25,953 nt of DNA from Candidatus Atribacteria bacterium (GTDB taxonomy: Bacteria > Atribacterota > JS1 > SB-45 > 34-128). Position 1 is the stretch's first letter, and each line of letters begins with the position of its first letter. The notes below the pieces were generated by a model that was not told the origin of the DNA, made no database searches, and saw nothing but the letters and a program-made list of their open reading frames with translations. The translations under genes were made by a program, and so were the position numbers. Location: positions 1 through 25,953 of the forward strand of contig DMCY01000023.1 in NCBI GenBank assembly GCA_003451675.1, read 5' to 3'. Positions 3,087 to 25,250 of this stretch are shown piece by piece.

Positions 3087-4325
3087 ATGGAAATAGTTAT
3101 TGTGGGGGCTGGCCCGATAGGATGTTATATAGCACAGTTGTTGAGGAAATGCGGGATTAATAGCTTTAGAATTATTGAAGAACACGATGAGGTAGGCAGG
3201 CCGGTAAGGTGTGCCGGGATTGTGGGCAAGCCGGTTTTCGAAGATAGTTTAATACCTTTATCGAGAGGTTCTATATTAAATCAGATTAACGGAGCCTTAT
3301 TTTTTTACCGGGGAGATAGTTTTAAGATAGAAAGGTCCGGGGTAGCTCTTGTAGTTGACAGGGAGAAGTTTGATAAAGAGTTGAGCCAGGGATTAGAAGT
3401 GGAATATGGGAGAAGATTACTGGAGATAGAGGAAGAAGGAGAAGGCGATGGAAGTAGGTATCGGCTAAAGACCAATCAGGGCGATATCTGGGCTGATATA
3501 GTTATTGGAGCTGATGGACCGCAGTCCCGGGTGAGAAAGTTTATAGATTCGAAGGGAAAAGTAAAAGAGGAAAAAAGAGGAAGCGAGGCGAAAAAAAATG
3601 GTAGTAGTGGCAGTGATGGCATTGATGGGATTGATGGCATTGATGTCTCCGGGGAAACTAAATTTTATAAAGGGGTCCAGTATAGAATAAAATTAGAAGA
3701 TTTAAAAGGCTTAGAAGATGATTTTTTTTCCGGGGAGTTGACCCGGATATATATGCGGGAAGGAATCCCTTTTTTTGTGTGGATTATCCCTGAAGGAGAC
3801 GGAATTATACGATTAGGGGTAATTGCAGAAAATGGACGCAGAGAGTTAAAGCGAGTGATAGAAGAAGAAGGGATAAAAGGTGAAATTATCGATAGATTAG
3901 CCGGGATTATTCCGATAGGACTGTGCCGAAGTGTTTACAGAAAGGTAGCGGTAGTGGGAGATGCAGCCCGGCAGGTAAAACCTCTGACCGGGGGAGGAAT
4001 TTATTACGGGATGAGGGCGGCCGATATTCTGGTGGAGTGTATTCAGGAAGGTGCGCTGGCCGAATATGACAAGAGATGGAAGAGTAAATTTGGCAGAGAA
4101 ATTAAATTTGGACTGTGGGCCAGGAAAGTTTACGAGAGATTAAATAAAGATGAGCATGAATTAGAGGATATTTTTTTGTTGTTTAAAGAGAATGCAGAAT
4201 TTATCGAGCAGGCGGCAAATTTTGAAAACCATTCTTTAGTATTTAGGGAGGCATTTAAGAGGCCGATGATATTTATGAAAGCCGGTAAAATTTTGGGGAG
4301 GAATATAGGGAAGATCTTATTTTAA
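3087..4325 (+). CDS. Geranylgeranyl reductase family FAD-dependent oxidoreductase
   Basis: A flavoprotein of 412 residues. The N-terminal Rossmann motif GAGPIG (7-12) binds FAD. It is followed by GRPVRCAGIVG, the signature of geranylgeranyl reductases and digeranylgeranylglycerophospholipid reductases, and later by VVGDAARQVKPLTGGGIYYG, the second FAD motif. These enzymes saturate prenyl chains of lipids, quinones or polyprenol carriers; the substrate here is unknown. Between about residues 153 and 192 there is a hydrophilic insert containing a DGI repeat encoded by a nine-base tandem repeat. The ATG has AGAGGA upstream, and rmlA follows after 27 bases, so they are probably co-transcribed. 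Confidence 0.82.
   Translation: MEIVIVGAGPIGCYIAQLLRKCGINSFRIIEEHDEVGRPVRCAGIVGKPVFEDSLIPLSRGSILNQINGALFFYRGDSFKIERSGVALVVDREKFDKELSQGLEVEYGRRLLEIEEEGEGDGSRYRLKTNQGDIWADIVIGADGPQSRVRKFIDSKGKVKEEKRGSEAKKNGSSGSDGIDGIDGIDVSGETKFYKGVQYRIKLEDLKGLEDDFFSGELTRIYMREGIPFFVWIIPEGDGIIRLGVIAENGRRELKRVIEEEGIKGEIIDRLAGIIPIGLCRSVYRKVAVVGDAARQVKPLTGGGIYYGMRAADILVECIQEGALAEYDKRWKSKFGREIKFGLWARKVYERLNKDEHELEDIFLLFKENAEFIEQAANFENHSLVFREAFKRPMIFMKAGKILGRNIGKILF
3615..3645 (+). repeat. 9-nt tandem repeat coding for (DGI)n
   Basis: Three units of GATGGNATT plus a partial fourth, in frame within the FAD oxidoreductase and encoding DGIDGIDGID. The period is a multiple of three, so copy-number changes would not break the frame. 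Confidence 0.8.
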
Positions 4326-5427: not shown

Positions 5428-5470
5428 AAAAAGTTTCCCAAAGGTGCCAGGCACCTTTGGGAAACTTTTT
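5428..5470. repeat. 43-nt palindrome, copy 3, between convergent genes
   Basis: Perfect palindrome, centre A (5449), arms identical to copy 2. It begins five bases after the rmlA stop and its last T is the first base of the complement of the stop codon of the minus-strand outer-membrane gene. An A-tract, GC-centred stem and T-tract on both strands fit a bidirectional terminator between convergent genes. Confidence 0.95.
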
Positions 5471-8400
5471 TAGAAGGAAGAGCCTAAAGTGATGTAGATA
5501 TCATATCCGTGGGGGTCGGCCAGGGCTTTGGCTGCCCCCAATCTTAGGGTAAAGGAAGAGTTGTATTGGTAATTAAAGTCTGCTTTTAGTTCTGCTCCGA
5601 TACTGGATTTAAAATCCTGCCAGATAGAATTAATTTCATTATTTTCGGTATTTATATTTATGCTGGAGTTGGAGTTGGAGCTTTCCCAGGCATTTCCGAT
5701 ATCGATAAAGAGGTCACCAGAAAGTCTTTCTAAAAAGATGGAGAGAGGGCCAAGTTTAAGGCTGTGCTCAATGTTGGCTAAGGGGAAACGATATTCTAAG
5801 CTGGTTAAGATAAGATTATTCCCTTCAAGGGTGGCATGTTTGTAACCCCGCAGAGAGAAGGTATTCACATCAGTATTACTAAGATTATCTGATGAATAGT
5901 TACTTCCTAATTTAAATTTTTCCCCGTCCAAACCTGATTCTAATATACTTGAAGAGCTGGTGCCAGCTACCAGGCGAAGAGCCAGGACCTGATGAAGTGG
6001 AGGCAGGGGAATAAATTTCCTGCCATCAAATATTAATTTATCAAAAGTATAATCACCACCCAGGGCTTTATCAGCATGTTCGTAGGTTAGAGAGAAAGAG
6101 TTGCCCAGTTCGGGACTGATAGAGAATCCATATTTTTCTGCATCAGAATAGGAGTAGCCTAGTCTCAGGCTACCGATTTTCTCCTGGTTAGCATTTAGTG
6201 GAGATGATGATGTGTTAGTGTCAGTAATGGATGATTTTTCGTATTGATAGCCGAGAAAAAATATCTGTCGATAAGGACGCGAATTTGTATTTGTGGTGAA
6301 GTCAGTCTGTCCTTTAAATGGGAAATAAATATTTACACCGGATTTTCCCTCTTCCCACCAGGAGGTTTGAGTTTGGGAAGATAAAATAGCATTTCCAGAT
6401 AGACAAAGATTAACAATAGGGAAGTGGCTATAATTATAATAATTGAAGTTGTAAGATAGGTTATTATTGAGTATCCCATAAGTAACGCTTAAGGGAAGAG
6501 AATGAAATCCCAGTACATCCTTTAATTCAGTTGAAAAACCAACTCCCAGGTCGTTTTCAGTGAGTTGAGCAGCGGGAATCCAATAGGTGGGCGGCCAGAA
6601 GGAGGCTAAAGGATGGTAAGGGTGGATCGGGTAATTACTTTTAGAATTAGAAGGGGTATTTAGGCCTTTATTGAATTGTTGTGCTGCCATAATTGGGGGC
6701 TCAGTACATTCTATTTCTATTTCTGTCCACTGATTGAGGTCTGTGTTTGGGTTCGAGTTTGGGTTTAGGTTTAGGTCCACTTTCATAAGGTGCAGTTCAT
6801 ATCCTGTGGCGTGATATTCGATAAAGGCTAGCTGGCTGCCATCGGGAGAGATGGCGGGCTGAAAGGATCCACCCAGGACATTGGTTATCTGATATAATTT
6901 TTTATCGGAAAGCGAAAAGGCAAAGATGTTATAAAATCCGGTACGGTCTGAGGTAAAGAAGAGATATTGGCCATCGGGAGACCAACAAGGGCTAATATCA
7001 ATAGATTTATCGCAAAAGATGGGCTGGAGAATAGAATTACCGATATTTTCGAGGTCAAGATTTAAGATACATATATCCTGATGACCATGGCGCCAGGCAG
7101 AAAGGGCTATCCTGTCCCCTTTGGGAGACCAGGATGGTTGAGATAATTGAGTACCATCTCGAAAATCTGTTAGATAGACAATGTCTTCTTTGGTAATTAG
7201 TTTATAGGTGGACTGGTTTTCATTAATTGATGAGCTTGGGGAAGGTAAATTAATTAGAGCTAAATTATTTGTTCCTGATTGATTAATTACTGCCACGATT
7301 TGAGGATTATCTGGGTTAGGTGACCAGCTGGGATCGCGAGCTCGCAGCCCCTCAGAAAGGCGGGTCTCTTTTTCTGTTTTTAGGTCGAACAAATAAAGGT
7401 CATAAAGTTTATAAAATTGCTCATAATCGTCTAATTTAGCATAAATTATTTTAGAACCGTCAGGAGATATGCTGAAAGAAGAATCCCGACCATAAGTTCT
7501 TTTAATTAAAGGCTCGTTTTTAATAGAATGAGGAGTTAAGGGAAGAGAAGGACTTAAAGGGTCGATAATTTGAATGAACGGATAGGAATGGGGTGTAGAA
7601 ACCTTAACTACTATTTTGTCTCCATCGGGGGTAGAAATCCAGCGCGGGTAATCGACCCAGTAATTGTATTTAGTTAATTGCTGGGAAGGAGTAAGATTTT
7701 TTTGAGAGAGAATTTTTTGCGCCTGGAGTTGATATTTCTCTTTTAAGTGGTCTTCCCAGGTTTGATATAGTTCGTTCAAGTTCAGGCCTATCGCTCTTTT
7801 TACGGCATAGTTAAACCCTAAATAGGGATATTCACAGAAAATTTCACTCATGGCAATTACTTTATCTTCTCCGTATTTTTGAGCTATAAAATGGATAAGG
7901 GATTGACCATAGATATAAGGTGCGGTACCGTCAGGCCAGGAAGTAAGATAATAGCCGCTTATCTGATCCAGAGTGTTAAATTGGTCTTCTAGGGCGGCCA
8001 TACGAAGATACATATCGTAGCGAGAATCTATTCCACGGCCTCCGGTGGTAAATTTAGTTTCATTATAAACTGCTAATCCTTCGATTGACCACATGGGCTG
8101 GAGGGCATTGGGAGTGAGTATCTGACCGAAAAGAGCGCGCAGGGCGGTTGTGAGTCCGGCGGTTATCTCGAAATGAGCCAGGTGGGTGTATTCGTGAGTG
8201 ATTACCATTTTAAGCCAGCTTTTAAATTTCATATCAAAGGATTTGGCGGTGGGGGCAGTCAGGGAGAGGCGAATCACCCGATGAGGGAAAGAGGAGGCAA
8301 AACCCAGGGCATAATCAGAAAAATCTTCCATAATTATGGCCATCTTTTGCAGATGATGATGCTTGTTGGGCGAGCCGAGCTGGGCATTAACCTGGTGGTA

Positions 8401-8643
8401 GGTTTCCTCGGCAATATCAGCTACCACTTGAGCTAATTGTTCGTTATTGTAACTAAAATCTTCATCATTTTGTTCATTGTTTTGCAATTTAGAAAAATAG
8501 ACTGAAAAATGAGGGCTTTCCAAGACCTGCCAATTTAAGCCGGGATTATAGCGAACAGCCTCCACACTCATAACTAATGGCGAGTATATTACTAAAAATA
8601 TTATAATAATGATATAAATAAAAAAAATTATTTTATTTTGCAT
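5470..8643 (-). CDS. Outer-membrane fusion: gluzincin metallopeptidase, TolB-type propeller, Omp85-like barrel
   Basis: A 1057-residue exported protein. Residues 1-30 form a hydrophobic signal sequence (MQNKIIFFIYIIIIIFLVIY). A zinc peptidase domain follows with HEYTH at 150-154 and a third ligand in WSIEGLAVYNE (Glu188), as in the peptidase MA-like clan. From about 331 to 620 there are at least six WSPDG/SPDGS-type blades of a TolB/PD40 propeller. From about 680 to the end lies a beta-rich barrel with FSLRGY (near 931) and LEYRFPL, LFIDIGNAW, as in the Omp85/BamA surface-antigen family, ending in the C-terminal Phe expected of outer-membrane barrels. An upstream GTG at 8688 lies within the adjacent palindrome and is not credible; ATG 8643 precedes the signal sequence. 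Substrate and role are unknown. Confidence 0.82.
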   Translation of the reverse strand: MQNKIIFFIYIIIIIFLVIYSPLVMSVEAVRYNPGLNWQVLESPHFSVYFSKLQNNEQNDEDFSYNNEQLAQVVADIAEETYHQVNAQLGSPNKHHHLQKMAIIMEDFSDYALGFASSFPHRVIRLSLTAPTAKSFDMKFKSWLKMVITHEYTHLAHFEITAGLTTALRALFGQILTPNALQPMWSIEGLAVYNETKFTTGGRGIDSRYDMYLRMAALEDQFNTLDQISGYYLTSWPDGTAPYIYGQSLIHFIAQKYGEDKVIAMSEIFCEYPYLGFNYAVKRAIGLNLNELYQTWEDHLKEKYQLQAQKILSQKNLTPSQQLTKYNYWVDYPRWISTPDGDKIVVKVSTPHSYPFIQIIDPLSPSLPLTPHSIKNEPLIKRTYGRDSSFSISPDGSKIIYAKLDDYEQFYKLYDLYLFDLKTEKETRLSEGLRARDPSWSPNPDNPQIVAVINQSGTNNLALINLPSPSSSINENQSTYKLITKEDIVYLTDFRDGTQLSQPSWSPKGDRIALSAWRHGHQDICILNLDLENIGNSILQPIFCDKSIDISPCWSPDGQYLFFTSDRTGFYNIFAFSLSDKKLYQITNVLGGSFQPAISPDGSQLAFIEYHATGYELHLMKVDLNLNPNSNPNTDLNQWTEIEIECTEPPIMAAQQFNKGLNTPSNSKSNYPIHPYHPLASFWPPTYWIPAAQLTENDLGVGFSTELKDVLGFHSLPLSVTYGILNNNLSYNFNYYNYSHFPIVNLCLSGNAILSSQTQTSWWEEGKSGVNIYFPFKGQTDFTTNTNSRPYRQIFFLGYQYEKSSITDTNTSSSPLNANQEKIGSLRLGYSYSDAEKYGFSISPELGNSFSLTYEHADKALGGDYTFDKLIFDGRKFIPLPPLHQVLALRLVAGTSSSSILESGLDGEKFKLGSNYSSDNLSNTDVNTFSLRGYKHATLEGNNLILTSLEYRFPLANIEHSLKLGPLSIFLERLSGDLFIDIGNAWESSNSNSSININTENNEINSIWQDFKSSIGAELKADFNYQYNSSFTLRLGAAKALADPHGYDIYITLGSSF

Positions 8644-8661
8644 ATTCTCATACTTCTTTCC

Positions 8662-8704
8662 AAAAAGTTTCCCAAAGGTGCCTGGCACCTTTGGGAAACT
8701 TTTT
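8662..8704. repeat. 43-nt palindrome, copy 4 (3' side of RAYT)
   Basis: Perfect palindrome, centre T (8683), arms identical to copies 2, 3 and 7. Its last T forms part of the complement of the RAYT stop codon (8704-8706). On the minus strand it sits 18 bases upstream of the outer-membrane fusion ATG and contains a spurious in-frame GTG. Confidence 0.95.
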
Positions 8705-9585
8705 TATAAAAATAGGGTTATTTTAATATGATTTAGCCAGAGCTGGTATATACGATCAGAGATTAAATTTCTATCCACCTTTTTACATATTTTTAGTACG
8801 CTTGGGCTGGTCATGTGTAGAGAATTTGCTACATCTTTTACTCTGTAACCCTCTTTTACTAATAAATATACAAGCAAATGTTTTAATCGTTTATTGGTTT
8901 CTATGTCTCCAATTTGTTCTTTTGTTTTCCTTAATATATTTTCTATATTTCTGGGCGATTTATTTTGTATTTGATTTGAGGTTATTTTAGTGACATTTTG
9001 GAGGATTTTTTCTGTTTCTAGGCCATCTTTTTGAATATTTTCTTTTACGAAATTTATAAAATTTTCTGGACTGGTTTGACAAAGTGTTAATAATTCCCGA
9101 ATGTTCAGCCATAAGGGAACGTTTTTGTTTTGATTTTGATTAGAGAGAAAATATTGAAAACTACTCCAAGGATATTCTTCGGGAGAATCCACTAATCCGG
9201 CCTCTACCGGATTTAGGCTAATATAAGAGGCTACGCTATATAGGTATAGGGAATTTAAAATAAGATGACTTTTGTAACGGTCTTGTAATAAATGCCCCTT
9301 CCTTATGTGTCTTATGTTGAACCAGTGGGCATAAGAGGAATTTAAAAACTGCATGGCTTGAGAAAGATTTGCTTCTTCTGTCTTTAGAAGTAGGTGGAAG
9401 TGAGTATCCATTAGTACATAGGAAAATAGGTGAACTTTGTGAAAGTTAACAATTTTTTGTAGAAGTTGTAGAAATTTATTTCTATCTACATCATCAGTAA
9501 ATATGTCAGTTCCTTCCACACCCTTACCAATTATATGATAAATAGCATTTTTATCTTCTATCTCTGTCCTATTTCTTCTTGCCAT
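8704..9585 (-). CDS. REP-associated tyrosine transposase (RAYT, Y1/HUH family)
   Basis: A 293-residue single-strand DNA nuclease of the Y1 transposase family. MARRNR is the usual RAYT start. The HUH pair is THFHLLL, following SYVLMD. The catalytic Tyr is in SYISLNPVEAGLV, the counterpart of the family's YIHLNPVRAGLV, followed by EEYPWSS. The C-terminal third carries a helix-turn-helix (EGYRVKDVANSLHMTSPSVL) like that of longer DnaA-tail RAYTs. The open frame extends to 9660 inside the neighbouring palindrome, but ATG 9585 fits the family. No frameshift or missing key residue is seen, so the enzyme may be active. It is the most likely agent for the palindromes found throughout the window. Confidence 0.9.
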   Translation of the reverse strand: MARRNRTEIEDKNAIYHIIGKGVEGTDIFTDDVDRNKFLQLLQKIVNFHKVHLFSYVLMDTHFHLLLKTEEANLSQAMQFLNSSYAHWFNIRHIRKGHLLQDRYKSHLILNSLYLYSVASYISLNPVEAGLVDSPEEYPWSSFQYFLSNQNQNKNVPLWLNIRELLTLCQTSPENFINFVKENIQKDGLETEKILQNVTKITSNQIQNKSPRNIENILRKTKEQIGDIETNKRLKHLLVYLLVKEGYRVKDVANSLHMTSPSVLKICKKVDRNLISDRIYQLWLNHIKITLFL

Positions 9586-9646
9586 AATATAAACATTATA
9601 TCCTTTATAAATAAATAGTTCAAGGGATTTCAGCATAGAAACAGCT

Positions 9647-9689
9647 AAAAAGTTTCCCAAAAGTGCCAGGCACTTTTGGGAAACTTTTT
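9647..9689. repeat. 43-nt palindrome, copy 5 (5' side of RAYT), covarying variant
   Basis: Perfect palindrome, centre A (9668). It differs from copies 2-4 at one position in each arm (core AGTGCCAGGCACT instead of GGTGCCAGGCACC), so the change is compensated and the stem is preserved. Confidence 0.95.
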
Positions 9690-14293: not shown

Positions 14294-15217
14294 TTGAAAT
14301 ATCTAGAAGTTGGCGTTATTGCCTTTATAGTTTCTTATATTTTAACTCCCTACATGGCTCATGTAGGGAAAAAACAGAATATGGTGGATATGCCCGGTCA
14401 CCGTAAGATACACGAAGAAGCTATCCCTAATTTGGGAGGGATAGTTATTTTTTTTGGATTTTTACTGAGTCTGCTATTTGTGGTGCAGATAGAAGGACAA
14501 GTTAAAGCCCTCTTGATAGGTGGGGTAATCATTTTGTTATTAGGAGTGGTAGATGACATAGTAGACCTTTCTCCCAAGCATAAATTCATTATTCAAATGG
14601 TTCCTGCCTTGATAGTGATTATATATAACAGTGATTTAATAAATAGTTTTATAGTTAATCAATTAAAAATTTTTGATCTGTTAGGTTATCTTCTTTATCC
14701 CATCTTAATTTTTTGGATAGTCGGAGTTACCAATTCCATCAATATAATAGATGGATTGGATGGACTGGCCTGCGGAGTTTCGATAATTAGTTTAATAGCT
14801 TTTTTTATTTTAGGATTAAGACAAAATTTTGAAATTATTAATCTGGTATCAATTACCCTGGTAGGGAGTATGTTGGCTTTTTTAAGATTTAATTTTTACC
14901 CGGCCAAAATCTTTTTGGGGGATTCCGGCAGTACTTTTGCCGGTTTTATGTTAGCCTCTGTAGGGGCTTTGTGGGTATTAAATAGTGGAAATACCTTTTT
15001 TATTTTAATTCCTATTATTATTCTGGCTCTACCTATTTTTGATACCCTGTTTGCCATCTGGAGGAGATACAGAGGTCATCATCCCATATTTCAGGCCGAT
15101 AAAGGGCATCTCCATCATCGACTTTTAGCTCGAGGGATATCTCATAAAAATGTTGTGCTTATCTTGTGGGGAATAAGCGCCGCTTGCAGCATAATCGCCC
15201 TTGTATTAGCGCTTTAA
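14294..15217 (+). CDS. tagO: Undecaprenyl-phosphate GlcNAc-1-phosphate transferase (WecA/TagO)
   Basis: A 307-residue polytopic membrane enzyme of glycosyltransferase family 4 that transfers GlcNAc-1-phosphate to undecaprenyl phosphate, starting lipid-linked polysaccharide synthesis on the cytoplasmic face. All catalytic motifs are intact: GVVDDIVDL with Asp87-Asp88, NSINIIDGLDGLACG, AKIFLGDSGST and the sugar-selective loop HHPIFQADKGHLHHRL, which favours WecA/TagO over MraY. The start is TTG 14294, with AGGAGAA at 14279-14285 and no better ATG nearby. It is followed by an epimerase and a WecG-like fusion, whose family partner acts on the TagO product. Confidence 0.9.
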   Translation: MKYLEVGVIAFIVSYILTPYMAHVGKKQNMVDMPGHRKIHEEAIPNLGGIVIFFGFLLSLLFVVQIEGQVKALLIGGVIILLLGVVDDIVDLSPKHKFIIQMVPALIVIIYNSDLINSFIVNQLKIFDLLGYLLYPILIFWIVGVTNSINIIDGLDGLACGVSIISLIAFFILGLRQNFEIINLVSITLVGSMLAFLRFNFYPAKIFLGDSGSTFAGFMLASVGALWVLNSGNTFFILIPIIILALPIFDTLFAIWRRYRGHHPIFQADKGHLHHRLLARGISHKNVVLILWGISAACSIIALVLAL

Positions 15218-15220
15218 TGT

Positions 15221-15263
15221 AAAAAGTTTCCCAAAGGTGCCAGGCACCTTTGGGAAACTTTTT
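15221..15263. repeat. 43-nt palindrome, copy 7, between tagO and the epimerase
   Basis: Perfect palindrome, centre A (15242), identical in sequence to copies 2 and 3. It begins four bases after the tagO stop. It contains an in-frame GTG (15237) that artificially lengthens the next gene. Confidence 0.95.
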
Positions 15264-15284
15264 GTGGCAGAAAGGAGAAGAAAC

Positions 15285-16346
15285 ATGAAATTAAACAAGA
15301 GAAAAGAACAAGTAAGTGAAAATAAAAAGACCACCGTGTTAGTTACCGGTGGGGCGGGCTTTATCGGTTCACACATTGTGGATTTGCTCATCAAAAATAA
15401 TTATAAAGTTGTGATAGTTGATGACTTATCTTCCGGCAGAGAGGAAAATATCAACCAAAGGGCTCGGTTTCATAAATTAGATATCAGAGACCAGAAAGGA
15501 TTGGTTAAAGTATTTGAGCAGGAAAAACCTGATTATGTATGCCATGAAGCCGCCCAGATTAGCGTATCTTTTTCCGTAAGGGACCCTTTATTTGATGCGC
15601 AAACCAATATCCTTGGTTCATTAAATTTATTGCAATGCTGCGTTAATTACCAGGTCAAGGGAATAGCCTTTGCCTCTAGCGGAGGGACTATTTATGGGGA
15701 ACCAGAGCATTTTCCCATTACTGAAGATTATCCTTTCAGTCCCCAATCACCTTATGGAATCAGTAAGGTTGCAGTTGAGCATTATCTTGATTTTTATCAG
15801 AAAAATTGCCATCTCCCACATGTAGCATTAAGATATGGAAACGTCTATGGACCCCGGCAGGATCCTTATGGTGAGGCCGGAGTTATCGCTATATTTATAG
15901 AAAGGATGCTAAAAGGCGAGATTCCTACTATAAATGGTGATGGTGAATATATCAGAGATTATATTTATGTAGAAGATGTGGCTCAAGCCAATTTACTCGC
16001 TCTTCAAAATATGGTAAAATTATCTAAAGTTGTTCAGAAAAAAGAAAAAGAAAAAACCAAAGAAGAAGAAAAAAAAGAATCTGAAGTAAAAGCTGGAGCC
16101 GAAGTTAAATTTAACGGCTTCAATCTGGGGACAGGAATAAGTGTTTCGGTAAATGAAATCTTTTATCTTTTAAAGGAGATTATAAAATTTCCTCATTCGG
16201 CGCATTATGGACCTCCCAGAGCAGGGGATTTAAGGAAGAATATTCTGGATTGCCACTTAATCAAAGATGTTTTAGGATGGCAGCCAAAGTTTGACTTTTC
16301 AGCGGGTTTAGAAAAGACAGTTAACTGGTTTAAGGAGAATATTTAA
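15285..16346 (+). CDS. NAD-dependent NDP-sugar epimerase (UDP-glucose/GlcNAc 4-epimerase like)
   Basis: An extended short-chain dehydrogenase of 353 residues. The NAD motif is TGGAGFIGSH near residues 20-29. The catalytic pair is Tyr157 and Lys161 in SPYGISK, with the Ser in ASSGGTIYGE. ALRYGNVYGPRQDP and RDYIYVEDVA are typical of GalE-like epimerases; the exact sugar cannot be read from sequence, though UDP-GlcNAc would fit the TagO neighbour. The frame opens at GTG 15237 inside the palindrome, but ATG 15285 with AAGGAGAAG before it is the credible start. A Lys/Glu-rich insert (about residues 245-275, including EKEKTKEEEKKESE) interrupts an otherwise conserved domain. Confidence 0.85.
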   Translation: MKLNKRKEQVSENKKTTVLVTGGAGFIGSHIVDLLIKNNYKVVIVDDLSSGREENINQRARFHKLDIRDQKGLVKVFEQEKPDYVCHEAAQISVSFSVRDPLFDAQTNILGSLNLLQCCVNYQVKGIAFASSGGTIYGEPEHFPITEDYPFSPQSPYGISKVAVEHYLDFYQKNCHLPHVALRYGNVYGPRQDPYGEAGVIAIFIERMLKGEIPTINGDGEYIRDYIYVEDVAQANLLALQNMVKLSKVVQKKEKEKTKEEEKKESEVKAGAEVKFNGFNLGTGISVSVNEIFYLLKEIIKFPHSAHYGPPRAGDLRKNILDCHLIKDVLGWQPKFDFSAGLEKTVNWFKENI

Positions 16347-16527
16347 TAATTAGTTTTAATTTTATAAATTTACCCTAAAAAGAAGGAATCTAAGATGCTT
16401 TTATCGTATTAAGATAATTGGATTGAGCAGAAAAAAGATTAAAAACAGAAAAAACAGAAAGAACAGAAAGATAAGACAAAAATAAGGATAAAAAAATAAA
16501 AGAAATAATGAAGGAAAATATATTTAT

Positions 16528-18204
16528 ATGTTAGAAACCGGAATGATGTTTAAAATCGCAGGTATTATTATATGCAGTGTGCTGATGGTCATCCTGGGGA
16601 GGGTAGACAGAAAGAAAAGACTTCCCACAGGAGTTAAATTGATATTTCAAGTTTTAATTTCTTTAGTTATAATTTATTCTGGAGTTAAAATAGAATTTTT
16701 GCGGGCTCCTTCCTCATCGGGAGGATATCTTTATCTTAGCTATTTATCCATCCCTCTAACCGTAATCTGGCTGATAGGTATTACTAATTCTATCGGCCAG
16801 GCAGATGAACTGGGAGAGATCACTCCCTATATTGTTTTTATCGCCTCATTAACTTTTTTAGTGGTCTCTCTGGTCCAGAGGCAGGGATTAATTTTGGCAG
16901 AAGCGCTATCTTTGATTATGGCGGCGATTTCATTTATTTTTATCAAATATATCCCCCGAGGAAAATTTTCTTCCTATTATATGTCTTTTGGATTTATACT
17001 AGCAGTGATTGCTATTGTGGGTGTATCCAAGAGCACAGCAGCTTTAACTTTGTTGATTCCTCTTTTAATTTTAGGCGTACCGATTATAGACAGCTCTTAT
17101 TCTATTGTGGCTAATTATGCTCGTCAGGAAAGCCCAGGTCCGGGTATGGAAAAATATCCTTTATTTTCGGAGAGCGGGAGCAGGAGTAGGTTACGTCAGA
17201 AGCTGCAATCTTATGGATTTTCAGCTCAAGGAGCGAATTTAACCATTATTGGGGTTTCTCTCTACTTAAGTTTATCAGCTTTTATTATTTCTATATATCA
17301 AAATTTCTATCTACTATTAACCCTGACTGCTTTTGGTTGGGTGGTTTTTGAATTACTGAAGAATAAGGTTCGGTCAGAGGAATTAATTATCGGAAGAGAT
17401 ATTGGGACCAGCCGCATAAAACTCTTTCAGGTGGGAATTGACCAGGTAGACAATCAAAAAACTATTCAAAAAATAGAAGAATTTATAGTTTCTAAAAAAC
17501 CTCATCAGATAGTTACTCCGGATACTTTGGCTGTATTGCGAGCAAGGAAAGACCCTGAATATCAGGCCATATTAAAATCTGCAGATTTGGTTACTCCTGA
17601 CGGAGCAGGTATTTTATGGGCTACCACGACTCTAAATTGTCCTTTACCTGAAAGGGTAACCGGTATAGACATAATACATAATATATGCCGATTGGCTGTC
17701 AAAAAGAGGTATTCTTTATATTTATTAGGTTCTTATCCCGGTGTGGCCAGGGAGGCCGCCTTAAATTTAATCAGGAAATATCCGGGAATAAAAATAGCTG
17801 GAACCCATCATGGTTATTTTGGGTGTGAAGATTCTCAAAATTGTGAAGATGTTAAAAATGGCAATAGCGATAGGAATAAAGAGGAAGAAGAGATTATTAC
17901 GGAGATTAAAGAAAAGAGACCTGATATATTGCTGGTGGGAATGGGTGTACCCAAACAAGAAAAATGGATTAATAAAAATTTGAACAGATTAGATGTTCCA
18001 GTCTGTATAGGGGTGGGAGGAAGTTTTGACGTCCTTTCCGGCAGGATACCGCGGGCACCATTATGGATGCAAAGACACGGAATGGAATGGATTTATAGAT
18101 CGATTAAGCAGCCAAATAGGGTTTTACGAATTTTAGCCCTTTTTTACTTTATCTGGTTGGTAATTTTAGGGAAAATGATTTATTTTCTAAAAGAAGTAGA
18201 TTAG
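16528..18204 (+). CDS. Degenerate WecA/MraY-like membrane domain fused to WecG/TagA glycosyltransferase
   Basis: A 558-residue fusion. Residues 1 to about 285 are polytopic and recognisably derived from the WecA/MraY fold (LIFQVLISLVIIYSGVKIEF, IPLTVIWLIGITNSI, GVPIIDSSYSI). The catalytic motifs are lost: VDD is VDR (27-28), the NxxNxxDGxDGL block is NSIGQADELGE, the GDSGS block is missing, and the HLHHRL loop is replaced by SRSRLRQKL. Residues about 300-540 form an apparently intact WecG/TagA/CpsF transferase: VTPDTLAV, TPDGAGILWA, GSYPGVAREAA, GTHHGYF, GMGVPKQEKWI, GVGGSFDVLSG, RAPLWMQRHGMEWIYR. This family adds ManNAc or ManNAcA to undecaprenyl-PP-GlcNAc. The membrane part may hold that lipid substrate. 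Following GTHHGYF is an 18-residue charged insert. Confidence 0.83.
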   Translation: MLETGMMFKIAGIIICSVLMVILGRVDRKKRLPTGVKLIFQVLISLVIIYSGVKIEFLRAPSSSGGYLYLSYLSIPLTVIWLIGITNSIGQADELGEITPYIVFIASLTFLVVSLVQRQGLILAEALSLIMAAISFIFIKYIPRGKFSSYYMSFGFILAVIAIVGVSKSTAALTLLIPLLILGVPIIDSSYSIVANYARQESPGPGMEKYPLFSESGSRSRLRQKLQSYGFSAQGANLTIIGVSLYLSLSAFIISIYQNFYLLLTLTAFGWVVFELLKNKVRSEELIIGRDIGTSRIKLFQVGIDQVDNQKTIQKIEEFIVSKKPHQIVTPDTLAVLRARKDPEYQAILKSADLVTPDGAGILWATTTLNCPLPERVTGIDIIHNICRLAVKKRYSLYLLGSYPGVAREAALNLIRKYPGIKIAGTHHGYFGCEDSQNCEDVKNGNSDRNKEEEEIITEIKEKRPDILLVGMGVPKQEKWINKNLNRLDVPVCIGVGGSFDVLSGRIPRAPLWMQRHGMEWIYRSIKQPNRVLRILALFYFIWLVILGKMIYFLKEVD

Positions 18205-22445: not shown

Positions 22446-24266
22446 TTGAATAGTTTAAATATTAAAAAAATATTATTTGAAGAGTTATTAGATAAGGTAG
22501 AAAAACCGGGGAGATATACCGGTAAAGAATTTAATGAGATAATAAAAGAAGAGGATGCATCCACTGTTAAAATAGCCTTAGTTTTCCCTGATTTATATGA
22601 GATCGGGATGAGTTATTTGGGATTTAAAATACTATACGAGATTATTAACAAGAGAGACGATGCTCTGGCTGAGCGAGTCTTTTCACCTGCTGTAGATATG
22701 GAAAAACTGCTAAGAGAACGACAGATACCCGTTTTTTCTTTAGAGACCTACAGATCTTTAAATTCTTTTGATATAGTTGGATTTACTATTCAACATGAAT
22801 TATGTTATTCCAATATCCTAAATCTTCTCGAACTTGGGCATATACCCTTAAGGTCGGAAGAGAGAAAAGAAGATGACCCCCTGATAATTGCCGGTGGACC
22901 AGGGGCCTTTAACCCAGAACCCTTATCCCGTTTTATAGATTTATTTGTAATCGGAGAAGGAGAAGAGATTGTCGGTGAAATTATAGAAGTGTATAAAAGA
23001 TGGAAAGAAAAAAAACAGAGCCGAGCTAAACTTTTAGAAGAATTAGCCCGGATAGAAGGGATTTATATTCCGTCTTTCTATGAAATAACTTATTTTAAAG
23101 ACGGAAGGGTTAAATCGGTTAATCCTAAAAAAGAAACCTATTACCCAGTAATTAAAAAGCAAATTATTTCTAATTTTGATAAAGCAGCATATCCTCTTTT
23201 TCCCATTGTTCCTAATATCGATGTAGTCCACGATAGAATCACCCTGGAAATTTTTCGAGGGTGTACCCGGGGGTGCCGTTTCTGTCAGGCAGGGATGATT
23301 TACCGCCCGGTAAGGGAAAAATCGGTCGATACTTTAATTGGATTGGCTGACGAAATTCTTGCCCATACCGGATACGAGGAGATATCCTTGTCCTCTTTAA
23401 GTTCAAGTGATTATAGTGAAATAGAGAGCTTGATTACTAAATTGGTGGACCGATTTGAAGAAAAAGGAGTGGGAGTTTCCCTGCCTTCTTTAAGGATAGA
23501 TTCCTTTTCTGTTGCTTTAGCCCAGCAGGTCCAGAGAGTCAGAAAGGCCGGTCTTACCCTTGCCCCGGAAGTAGGAACTCAAAGGTTAAGAGACGTGATA
23601 AATAAGAATGTTCAGGAAGAGGACCTGTATTCTTCGATAAGAGCAGCTTTCGAGAGAGGGTGGAGGAAGATAAAACTTTATTTTATGGTTGGCCTGCCCA
23701 CCGAGACCGAAGAAGATGTGGAAGGAATAGTGAGACTGGTTAGTAAAGTTGACCGCATGGGGAGAGAAATAACCGGAAGAAAGATCAGTATAAATATTAG
23801 CGTGTCTGCTTTTGTGCCTAAACCTCATACTCCTTTTCAATGGGAAGCCCAGGAAGAGAGGGAGATATTGTCTGAAAAAGTAAGATATTTGAAGAATAGA
23901 TTAAATTGGAGGAACATTTCTTTCAGTTACCCAGATATTGACCGTAGCTATCTGGAGGCAGTATTTGCCCGAGGAGATAGAATATTAGGTGAAGTATTAG
24001 AAAAAGCTCACTATCTGGGATGTAAATTTGATGCATGGAGAGAACAGTTTGATTTTGAAGCCTGGCAGCAGGCCTTTAATGATTGCGGGCTTAATATGGA
24101 ATTTTATGCTAACAGAGCGAGGAAAGAAGATGAGATTCTACCCTGGGACCATATCTCCTGTGGAGTTAAAAAAGAATATTTACTTGAGGAGAAGAAGAAG
24201 TCTTTAAGGGGAGAAACAACTCCTGATTGTCGTTTTGAGGATTGTACGGGGTGTGGAGTATGTTAA
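22446..24266 (+). CDS. Radical SAM protein of the TIGR03960 type
   Basis: A 606-residue radical SAM enzyme. The N-terminal region (about 35-190) is a cobalamin-binding-like Rossmann domain (VALVFPDLYEIGMSYLGFKILYEI, IAGGPGAFNPEPLSRFIDLFVIGEGEE). The iron-sulfur motif is C273xxxC277xxC280 in RGCTRGCRFCQ, followed by SLSSLSSSDYSEIE and APEVGTQRLRDVINK. A Cys-containing tail (DCTGCGVC) closes it. The family is widespread, of unknown reaction, and almost always adjacent to the DUF2344 protein, as here; a role near tRNA or rRNA processing has been suggested because ribonuclease G and ribosomal-protein genes often follow. The start is TTG with AAGGAGAAG upstream. Confidence 0.88.
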   Translation: MNSLNIKKILFEELLDKVEKPGRYTGKEFNEIIKEEDASTVKIALVFPDLYEIGMSYLGFKILYEIINKRDDALAERVFSPAVDMEKLLRERQIPVFSLETYRSLNSFDIVGFTIQHELCYSNILNLLELGHIPLRSEERKEDDPLIIAGGPGAFNPEPLSRFIDLFVIGEGEEIVGEIIEVYKRWKEKKQSRAKLLEELARIEGIYIPSFYEITYFKDGRVKSVNPKKETYYPVIKKQIISNFDKAAYPLFPIVPNIDVVHDRITLEIFRGCTRGCRFCQAGMIYRPVREKSVDTLIGLADEILAHTGYEEISLSSLSSSDYSEIESLITKLVDRFEEKGVGVSLPSLRIDSFSVALAQQVQRVRKAGLTLAPEVGTQRLRDVINKNVQEEDLYSSIRAAFERGWRKIKLYFMVGLPTETEEDVEGIVRLVSKVDRMGREITGRKISINISVSAFVPKPHTPFQWEAQEEREILSEKVRYLKNRLNWRNISFSYPDIDRSYLEAVFARGDRILGEVLEKAHYLGCKFDAWREQFDFEAWQQAFNDCGLNMEFYANRARKEDEILPWDHISCGVKKEYLLEEKKKSLRGETTPDCRFEDCTGCGVC

Positions 24267-24530
24267 TCAATTATTAGCTAATTAGCCAATTGATTAACAT
24301 ACTCAGTTACTTAGTTACCCGGTTAGCTAGTTAGTTGGTTAAAAATAGGAAGAAAGACATGAAATACAAATTACAAGTTAATATAGTTACCCGTTTACAC
24401 AATTTGCCAATAAATAATTAGTTTAAGAATTAGTTGGTTTAATATTAATTTCTTAACTAACTAACCAGCTAACCAAAGAAGAGATATGAATTTATAATTG
24501 TTAGATCGATCAAGAAAGGAATTAAATAGT
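24267..24530 (+). other. Gap with an imperfect inverted repeat
   Basis: About 260 bases without a credible gene. A 22-nt inverted repeat with two mismatches pairs 24321-24342 (GGTTAGCTAGTTAGTTGGTT...) with 24453-24474. The same GGTTAGCTGG word occurs at the rodA end. AAAGGA at 24515-24520 serves the next gene. Confidence 0.6.
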
Positions 24531-25250
24531 TTGGAACAATTAGTCAGAGTAAAATATTGTAAAGACGGACCAATTAAATATATTTCCCATTTAAATCTGG
24601 CCCAGGTTTTTACCCGTGCTATAAGAAGAGCCGATATCCCTGTGGTTAAATCCGAAGGTTTTAACCCCCGGTTTAGAATATCTTTCGGTCCCCCTTTACC
24701 CTTGGGAATAAGCAGCACATCTGAATATTTAGATATTCGGTTAAAAGAAGAGGTAAAAACCGAGGAGTTAGCAGAGAAGTTAAACCGGGTCTTACCTCAG
24801 GGGTTGAAGATATTACGAGCTAAAATAATCCCTTCTTTTACCGATTCATTAGTCAAAATAATTGATAAAGCTTCTTATATTATCACCCTGAAAATAAAGG
24901 AAGTATTGTTAGATTCAGCAGCTAAAAATCAAGAAGATGAATTAAGAAAGCTGAAGCAAGAGATAGAAAAAAATAATAAAAGATTTTTAAATTTGGACGA
25001 AATTATCGTAGAAAAGCAGACTAAAAATGGGATTAAAATGGTTGATATAAAGCCTTCGGTTTTAGATATAAAGGTACAGAAATTTAAAAGCCCGATTTTA
25101 AAGCTTAACTTGGAAATAAGGATAGGGCAGCAGGGAAATTTAAATCCCCGCTATGTGGCAAAGGCCTGGATTTCCAATTTTGCAAATAGCTTTGATATCA
25201 TCCAGATACATCGTGATGGTTTATATGTAAAAGGTGAAGATGTTATTTAA
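24531..25250 (+). CDS. Radical SAM-linked protein, DUF2344 (TIGR03936)
   Basis: A protein of about 239 residues whose N-terminus (LVRVKYCKDGPIKYISHLNLAQVFTRAIRRA, then FNPRFRISFGPPLPLGISS and SEYLDIRL) matches the TIGR03936/DUF2344 family. It is the standard partner of the preceding radical SAM protein; in other genomes the two are fused or adjacent, so a joint function is expected though unknown. The frame is open from TTG 24498, but TTG 24531 with AAAGGA ten bases upstream gives the family's usual start (MEQLVRVKY). Confidence 0.85.
   Translation: MEQLVRVKYCKDGPIKYISHLNLAQVFTRAIRRADIPVVKSEGFNPRFRISFGPPLPLGISSTSEYLDIRLKEEVKTEELAEKLNRVLPQGLKILRAKIIPSFTDSLVKIIDKASYIITLKIKEVLLDSAAKNQEDELRKLKQEIEKNNKRFLNLDEIIVEKQTKNGIKMVDIKPSVLDIKVQKFKSPILKLNLEIRIGQQGNLNPRYVAKAWISNFANSFDIIQIHRDGLYVKGEDVI

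Follow-up and report, generated by a model that had tools for sequence, protein, structure and literature searches.

A fused open reading frame near TagO

We analyzed a 25,953-nucleotide stretch of DNA (the window) from Candidatus Atribacteria bacterium, which comprises positions 1 to 25,953 of contig DMCY01000023.1 (assembly GCA_003451675.1, forward strand). Two genes downstream of an intact TagO, it carries a 558-codon open reading frame (ORF), here called the fusion, in which a glycosyltransferase (GT) of the WecG/TagA type follows a membrane domain related to WecA and TagO that is predicted to be catalytically inactive. This domain belongs by its predicted fold to the polyprenyl-phosphate N-acetylhexosamine-1-phosphate transferases (PNPTs) and is referred to as the pseudo-PNPT domain; transmembrane helices (TM) are numbered after the PNPTs. 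The main features are:

16528..18204, + strand: fusion gene, 558 aa (ORF; PF00953 and PF03808; preceded by an in-frame TAA)
16528..17376, + strand: pseudo-PNPT membrane domain, residues 1-283, equivalent to TM3-TM10 plus one further helix, without TM1-2
17392..18201, + strand: WecG/TagA-type GT domain, residues ~289-558, including a C-terminal appendage
14294..15217, + strand: intact TagO/WecA-type phosphoglycosyltransferase (PF00953, 135 bits; four motifs intact)
15237..16346, + strand: NAD-dependent nucleotide-sugar epimerase, lying after TagO and before the fusion (true start probably 15285; first codons in a repeat)

A preliminary description, made from the sequence alone, had given the same ORF position and two-domain composition, and both the ORF list and a Pfam scan agreed with it. 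Glycos_transf_4 (PF00953) matched residues 11-165 with 42.7 bits, against a cut-off of 27, and Glyco_tran_WecG (PF03808) matched residues 352-535 with 214.6 bits; protein databases already annotate both domains on this protein. The intact TagO was likewise found two genes upstream as described, with the epimerase lying between. When the fusion was compared with this TagO by BLASTP, the identity was 24% and the alignment began only at TagO residue 69. The first 68 residues of TagO, which hold TM1-2 and the first cytoplasmic loop, therefore have no counterpart in the fusion. A missed upstream start that would restore TM1-2 was ruled out, because an in-frame TAA at 16489-16491 shows that the start was not mis-called.

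Loss of catalytic motifs in the membrane domain

The sites of the catalytic motifs, as located by alignment, and the best conserved helices of the membrane domain are as follows:

16606..16611, + strand: D27-R28, degenerate DD motif (VDD to VDR)
16786..16818, + strand: residues 87-97 (NSIGQADELGE), degenerate NxxNxxDGLDG loop with a clade-specific conserved replacement
16954..16983, + strand: residues 143-152 (PRGKFSSYYM), shortened loop in place of GDxGS
16978..17127, + strand: TM8 and TM9, residues 151-200 (conservation; helix break at 182 in the better structure model)
17188..17205, + strand: residues 221-226 (RLRQKL), degenerate HLHHRL

Relative to the TagO of the window, VDD is changed to VDR, NSINIIDGLDGLA to NSIGQADELGEIT, GDSGS to FSSYY, and HLHHRL to RLRQKL. 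A joint alignment was made with 20 Atribacterota fusions (that of the window and those of 19 genomes, loci L081-L092 and L094-L100) and 22 TagO-type rows. In this alignment, DD, NxxNxxDG(L/M)DG, GDxG(S/A) (the magnesium site), and HxHH are each broken in 20/20 fusions, and all four are intact in 22/22 TagO-type rows. A pattern scan for DGxDG, GDxG(S/A), HxHH, and GxxDD found none of them among the fusion homologs in the matches listed (120 of 285, including the window's own fusion protein). Judged from these sequences, the motif loss exceeds chance. The reported breakdown of VDD, DGLDG, GDSGS, and HLHHRL is thus borne out, but the statement that every catalytic motif is lost has to be qualified, since single residues persist. 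The first D of DD (D27) is D in 15/20 and N in 5/20 fusions; N87 (20/20), D93 (18/20), and P185 and D188 of TM9 (both 20/20) also survive. Structural or partial residues that are kept include G24, W81, N87, D93, G155, K168, P178, P185, D188, L226, and G230, and the domain carries conserved polar stretches specific to its clade (TNSxxQ, TP, QGLxxAExLS).

Fold, conservation, and selection

Among the families of the VIA list, the predicted structure of the membrane domain matches the WecA/MraY fold, the absence of which had been named beforehand as one result that would refute the preliminary interpretation. The better model shows a helix break at residue 182 in TM9, but was built on an alignment (A4) that includes the 22 TagO rows, and its likeness to MraY is partly built in. 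A model from the fusions only (mean predicted local distance difference test score 70.3) still matches MraY, with TM9 running without a break. The described retention of the WecA/MraY scaffold therefore holds for TM3-TM10; that TM1, TM2, and the first cytoplasmic loop (DxPxxRKxH..PRxGG) are absent, as found by BLASTP, alignment, and structure comparison, had been overlooked. Like the known PNPTs (WecA/TagO/MraY; PF00953; DPAGT1), the fusion has the predicted fold of TM3-TM10 and scattered structural residues such as G24, W81, P178, P185, and G230. It departs from them in its broken DD, DGLDG, GDxGS, and HxHH motifs, in the absence of TM1-2 and the first cytoplasmic loop, and in the attached GT.

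No internal stop was present in any of the 19 full-length fusions. Identity to the window across 19 rows was 51-94% for the N-terminal half and 54-92% for the C-terminal half, a similar divergence. The median ratio of nonsynonymous to synonymous substitution rates (dN/dS) was 0.142 for the membrane half, 0.152 for the GT half, and 0.100 for TagO (28 non-independent pairs from 8 loci, counted with a custom script; L005 and L009 were excluded as they contain no complete gene). The membrane domain is under purifying selection. The loss of all four motifs could also be expected of a decaying relic, in part a pseudogene, but the open frames, the dN/dS of 0.14, and the similar divergence of both halves speak against it; for the Atribacterota fusion clade this explanation was rejected, and we give it next to no credence. 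On the evidence of the alignments and dN/dS, the membrane half is a pseudoenzyme, whose catalytic motifs were lost under continued purifying selection and which would be without phosphoglycosyltransferase activity.

Conservation was scored from 14 of the 20 Atribacterota rows, after six near copies had been dropped. The highest values were obtained for TM9a (0.91) and TM8 (0.88), followed by TM5 and TM6 (both 0.77), TM9b (0.71), TM3 (0.70), and TM7 (0.68), and the lowest for TM4 and TM10 (both 0.65) and TM11 (0.53). The cytoplasmic loop CL5 reached 0.83 and the GT domain 0.69; TM8, TM9a, and CL5 are hence better conserved than the GT domain. These values bear on the simplest explanation, that the domain is a membrane anchor only, its fold being a historical leftover without a ligand. 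TagA is proposed in PMC6493773 to be active only at the membrane, and a WecA-like protein would be a natural fusion partner. However, one helix would be enough for anchoring, the GT has a membrane appendage of its own, and a mere anchor should drift more than TM8, TM9a, and CL5 do. Neither the conservation of TM8 and TM9a nor a dN/dS like that of the GT would be expected from a plain anchor, and we regard anchoring alone as unlikely.

The glycosyltransferase domain

The C-terminal half has the family profile and the fold of WecG/TagA/CpsF (GT26). Three of its sites are used below:

17515..17532, + strand: TPDTLA, residues 330-335, with TagA T37 kept, N39 changed to D332, and E41 changed to L334 (20/20 fusions)
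17599..17601, + strand: D358, equivalent to TagA D65, the catalytic base proposed in PMC6493773 (20/20 fusions)
18118..18129, + strand: R531 and R534 of the C-terminal appendage, equivalent to TagA R221 and R224 (20/20 and 19/20 fusions)

Residues were mapped onto TagA of T. italicus. The mapping was checked at positions 203, 209, 212, and 216, where the aligned PDB chain has E, Q, K, and E, matching the engineered mutant of PMC6493773; the corresponding residues of the fusion are W513, M519, I522, and I526. T37, D65, R83, Y137, Q167, E168, R214, and R221 are kept in 20/20 fusions and R224 in 19/20, so that the C-terminal appendage is present with its arginines. The same source models TagA N39 beside the acceptor GlcNAc and proposes that membrane contact converts an inactive dimer into an active monomer. 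The motif TxN(P/A)E reads TPDTL in 20/20 fusions, with N39 changed to D and E41 to L; both N and E are retained in nine standalone WecGs (eight from other Atribacterota genomes, one from Halalkalibacter). The GT domain, described earlier as apparently complete, is so with respect to T37, D65, R83, Q167/E168, and the appendage arginines, but not in this motif. Because the catalytic residues are kept and N39 and E41 are changed, the fused GT looks active with an altered acceptor side.

Among 88 sampled sequences, the TxD form of the motif was found in 36/36 fusions (seven partial and judged by eye) and in 21/52 standalone proteins. The standalone set consists of every second listed match plus chosen ones, all near the query, and over-represents TxD; two of its TxD rows (P0148, P0174) begin inside the domain and may be truncated. 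As far as this sample indicates, TxD is not unique to fusions, and N39 is highly conserved without being universal, hence this residue was not treated as defining. Standalone TxD-type WecGs (e.g., P0151, P0154, P0229) share TxD(S/A) in place of TxNxE with the fusion, but have no membrane domain ahead. From TagA/TarA and WecG (WecB/TagA/CpsF, GT26; PDB 7mpk, 7n41, 5wb4, 5wfg), the fusion differs in its TPDTL motif, in the integral membrane domain ahead of the GT, and in its score with the TarA equivalog NF041710 (176.1 bits), which is under the curated cut-off of 350 bits.

Distribution and gene neighborhood in Atribacterota

The fusion was found in 22/50 Atribacterota genomes, 19 times in full length and three times as pieces at contig ends. 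Standalone WecG was found with a protein query in none of the 22 fusion genomes (in four also checked with PF03808, the fusion was the sole match) and in 20 of the 28 genomes without fusion; the draft state of the genomes limits such absence counts. In 18/22 fusion genomes, no more than 3 kb separates TagO from the fusion; in the remaining four (G035, G037, G041, G047), the contig extends upstream by at most ~1.6 kb. Among the 20 standalone-WecG genomes, 19 have a TagO row, which is on another contig in 17 and more than 0.5 Mb away on the same contig in two, although contig breaks limit this contrast in TagO linkage.

A search for the UDP-GlcNAc 2-epimerase WecB (PF02350) covered 25 of the 50 genomes, chosen for this purpose. 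WecB adjoins TagO in 9/9 standalone-WecG genomes tested; it is present in 12/16 fusion genomes tested, and within 3 kb of TagO in none. TagO is thus next to WecB in 9/9 tested non-fusion genomes and near the fusion in 18/22 fusion genomes, a switch of partner. The epimerase between TagO and the fusion in the window is GalE/RmlB-like, with scores under the curated cut-offs listed, and the sugar donor may therefore not be UDP-ManNAc. A different arrangement was seen in genome G045 (locus L130), where a fusion-type TagO at 3112-4050 (-) is followed, by eye, by V-ATPase-like genes over 3 kb downstream, not by the epimerase and fusion.

The linkage to TagO in 18/22 fusion genomes would also suit an allosteric or oligomerizing role, in which the pseudo-PNPT domain tunes the first step by binding TagO or by sensing the lipid-linked product. 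MraY and DPAGT1 dimerize (PMC10914600, PMC6218659), and lipid II is proposed to exert feedback control on MraY at the dimer interface, at a site that includes Y21 and T23 (PMC10914600). These two residues lie near the N-terminus of MraY, in a region that is absent in the fusion, and G045 carries such a TagO with no fusion detected. The dimerization with TagO put forward earlier is therefore weakened for a heterodimer of the MraY type, although it could take another mode, and we consider a regulatory role of this kind rather improbable.

Related fusions beyond Atribacterota

The preliminary description had not noticed that such fusions are distributed more widely. With the GT half alone as the query, 120 of 6487 matches were listed, among them partial proteins with a similar membrane tail (by eye). 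A follow-up search listed 22 proteins, 20 of them 581-613 aa long, of a second family of ~600 aa fusions with a predicted inactive membrane half (P0241-P0261), in which P0257 and P0261 are named as Armatimonadota/Armatimonadetes. No PF00953 call was made for 21 of the 22 members, P0261 being the only one of nine scanned above the cut-off (28.9 bits). Across its 20 aligned rows, all four PNPT motifs are broken: DD retains its second D in 20/20, RR takes the place of DGLDG in 19/20, and a single H remains of HxHH, with E after it. Both families combine a predicted inactive WecA-like N-terminal half with a TxD-type WecG, but in the alignment P0241-P0261 show hydrophobic stretches where TM1-2 would stand, and they conserve other residues. 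This difference argues against the idea that the N-terminal half gained a different activity, in catalysis or transport, that acts on lipid-linked sugars, for which the conserved polar stretches TNSxxQ, TP, and QGLxxAExLS might be cited. With no recognizable catalytic constellation in the domain, we find such a new activity very unlikely.

In the GT tree, the two fusion families form two clades, and at least three changes are required for fusion and at least two for TxD. A single origin was not rejected by the approximately unbiased (AU) test, either for all fusions (p 0.251, P0148 and P0174 being grouped with the fusions) or for the TxD motif (p 0.449). In the tree of the N-terminal halves (8 truncated and 11 near-copy rows dropped), a 99/99 branch separates the fusions of the two families from the 22 TagO rows; a long-branch warning applies, so that a joint origin of the two families is not implied. 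A recent tandem duplication of the neighboring TagO as the source of the inactive half is unsupported, as this branch sets the fusion halves apart.

In Chloroflexota, a WecG match was found in 105/151 genomes. At 17 loci, chosen mostly for a long open frame, BLASTP found a pseudo-PNPT or TagO match in 0/16 ORFs matching the GT half, and the lone such match at these loci is a separate gene. Two long frames in G055 look, by eye, like high-GC overlaps with WecG starting inside. P0157 and P0176 hold two WecG stretches each. As judged by eye, five Chloroflexota loci (L134, L135, L136, L138, L139) encode WecG with a long C-terminal tail containing two STAS-like stretches, and another (L142) has a GT2-like glycosyltransferase followed by a WecG domain in one ORF.

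Proposed function

The TM5/TM8/TM9 side of PNPTs is thought to accommodate the lipid chain. We hypothesize, with confidence slightly above even, that the pseudo-PNPT domain anchors the GT and most likely cradles polyprenyl-PP-GlcNAc from TagO for addition of the second sugar. The PNPT fold would have lost the residues for magnesium, UDP-sugar, and catalysis and retained the intramembrane TM5/TM8/TM9 side. The domain would keep the fused GT permanently at the cytoplasmic face of the membrane and most likely hold the lipid made by the adjacent TagO, the probable source of the lipid-linked acceptor, and the GT would then add the second sugar to it. Lipid binding, substrate presentation, the acceptor, and the donor (UDP-ManNAc or the product of the adjoining epimerase) are all inferred. 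Presentation of undecaprenyl-PP-GlcNAc to the GT, one of the roles proposed in the preliminary description, would fit a membrane half that retains TM8-TM9 and a GT whose acceptor-side motif is changed.

Several observations weigh against this hypothesis. TM9b, which lines the MraY cleft, is conserved at only 0.71, and anchoring by itself is redundant, as the GT still carries a membrane appendage at its C-terminus. The residues kept in the two families (N87/Q91/S148 versus RR and HE) do not point to one specific ligand for both, and dN/dS cannot separate lipid binding from structural constraint. Four of the 16 tested fusion genomes are without a WecB match. G039 has a fusion-type TagO at a contig start with no fusion detected, and the TagO of G045 is of the fusion-genome type (68% identical to that of the window), also with no fusion detected. 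A TagO of the G045 type does accordingly not always need the fusion, and this genome lowered our confidence slightly.

A broader version is that the pseudo-PNPT family acts as a lipid-carrier receptor in at least two phyla: after the loss of catalysis, the PNPT fold would have persisted as a cradle in which polyprenyl-PP-sugar is received from TagO and passed to the attached GT of the second step, whose acceptor-side motif changed. We offer this generalization tentatively, as less likely than not. If true, the PNPT fold has a lipid-binding function that is separable from catalysis. A 2016 review (PMC5039524) notes the absence of direct evidence on the way in which MraY accommodates the long polyprenyl chain, and a catalysis-free version of the fold would be a clean system for testing this. 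The hypothesis, if correct, would also reveal that an essential antibiotic-target fold (MraY/WecA/TagO/DPAGT1) has a conserved pseudoenzyme version, suggest a way in which cells may link the first step of lipid-linked glycan assembly to the second, and mark, at the level of domain architecture, a surface-glycan route in the mostly uncultured Atribacterota and at least some Armatimonadota. Both halves are known families, and the conserved inactive PNPT module is the new part; among the open-licence PMC full-text matches listed, no title or opening of an abstract mentions an inactive PNPT domain or the fusion of a PNPT to WecG.

Other features of the window

A palindromic repeat, GGTGCCAGGCACC, occurs at seven sites (305, with one mismatch, 2476, 5443, 8677, 15236, 19009, and 20836), with none expected in shuffled sequences. 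These repeats are likely elements similar to repetitive extragenic palindromic (REP) sequences, and they give false N-terminal MPGTFGKLF tags to mechanically called ORFs such as 5470-8688 and 15237-16346. A Y1-type (IS200-like, PF01797) transposase with a C-terminal extension is encoded at 8704-9660 (-) and is possibly the REP-associated transposase for the GGTGCCAGGCACC repeats. The ORF at 5470-8688 (-) encodes a 1072 aa protein with Peptidase_MA-like (sub-cut-off), PD40 propeller, and Omp85-type barrel parts, an architecture that suggests an outer membrane. Finally, a TIGR03960 radical SAM gene and its TIGR03936 partner lie at 22446-25250 as separate adjoining genes, downstream of mreD, PBP2, and rodA.
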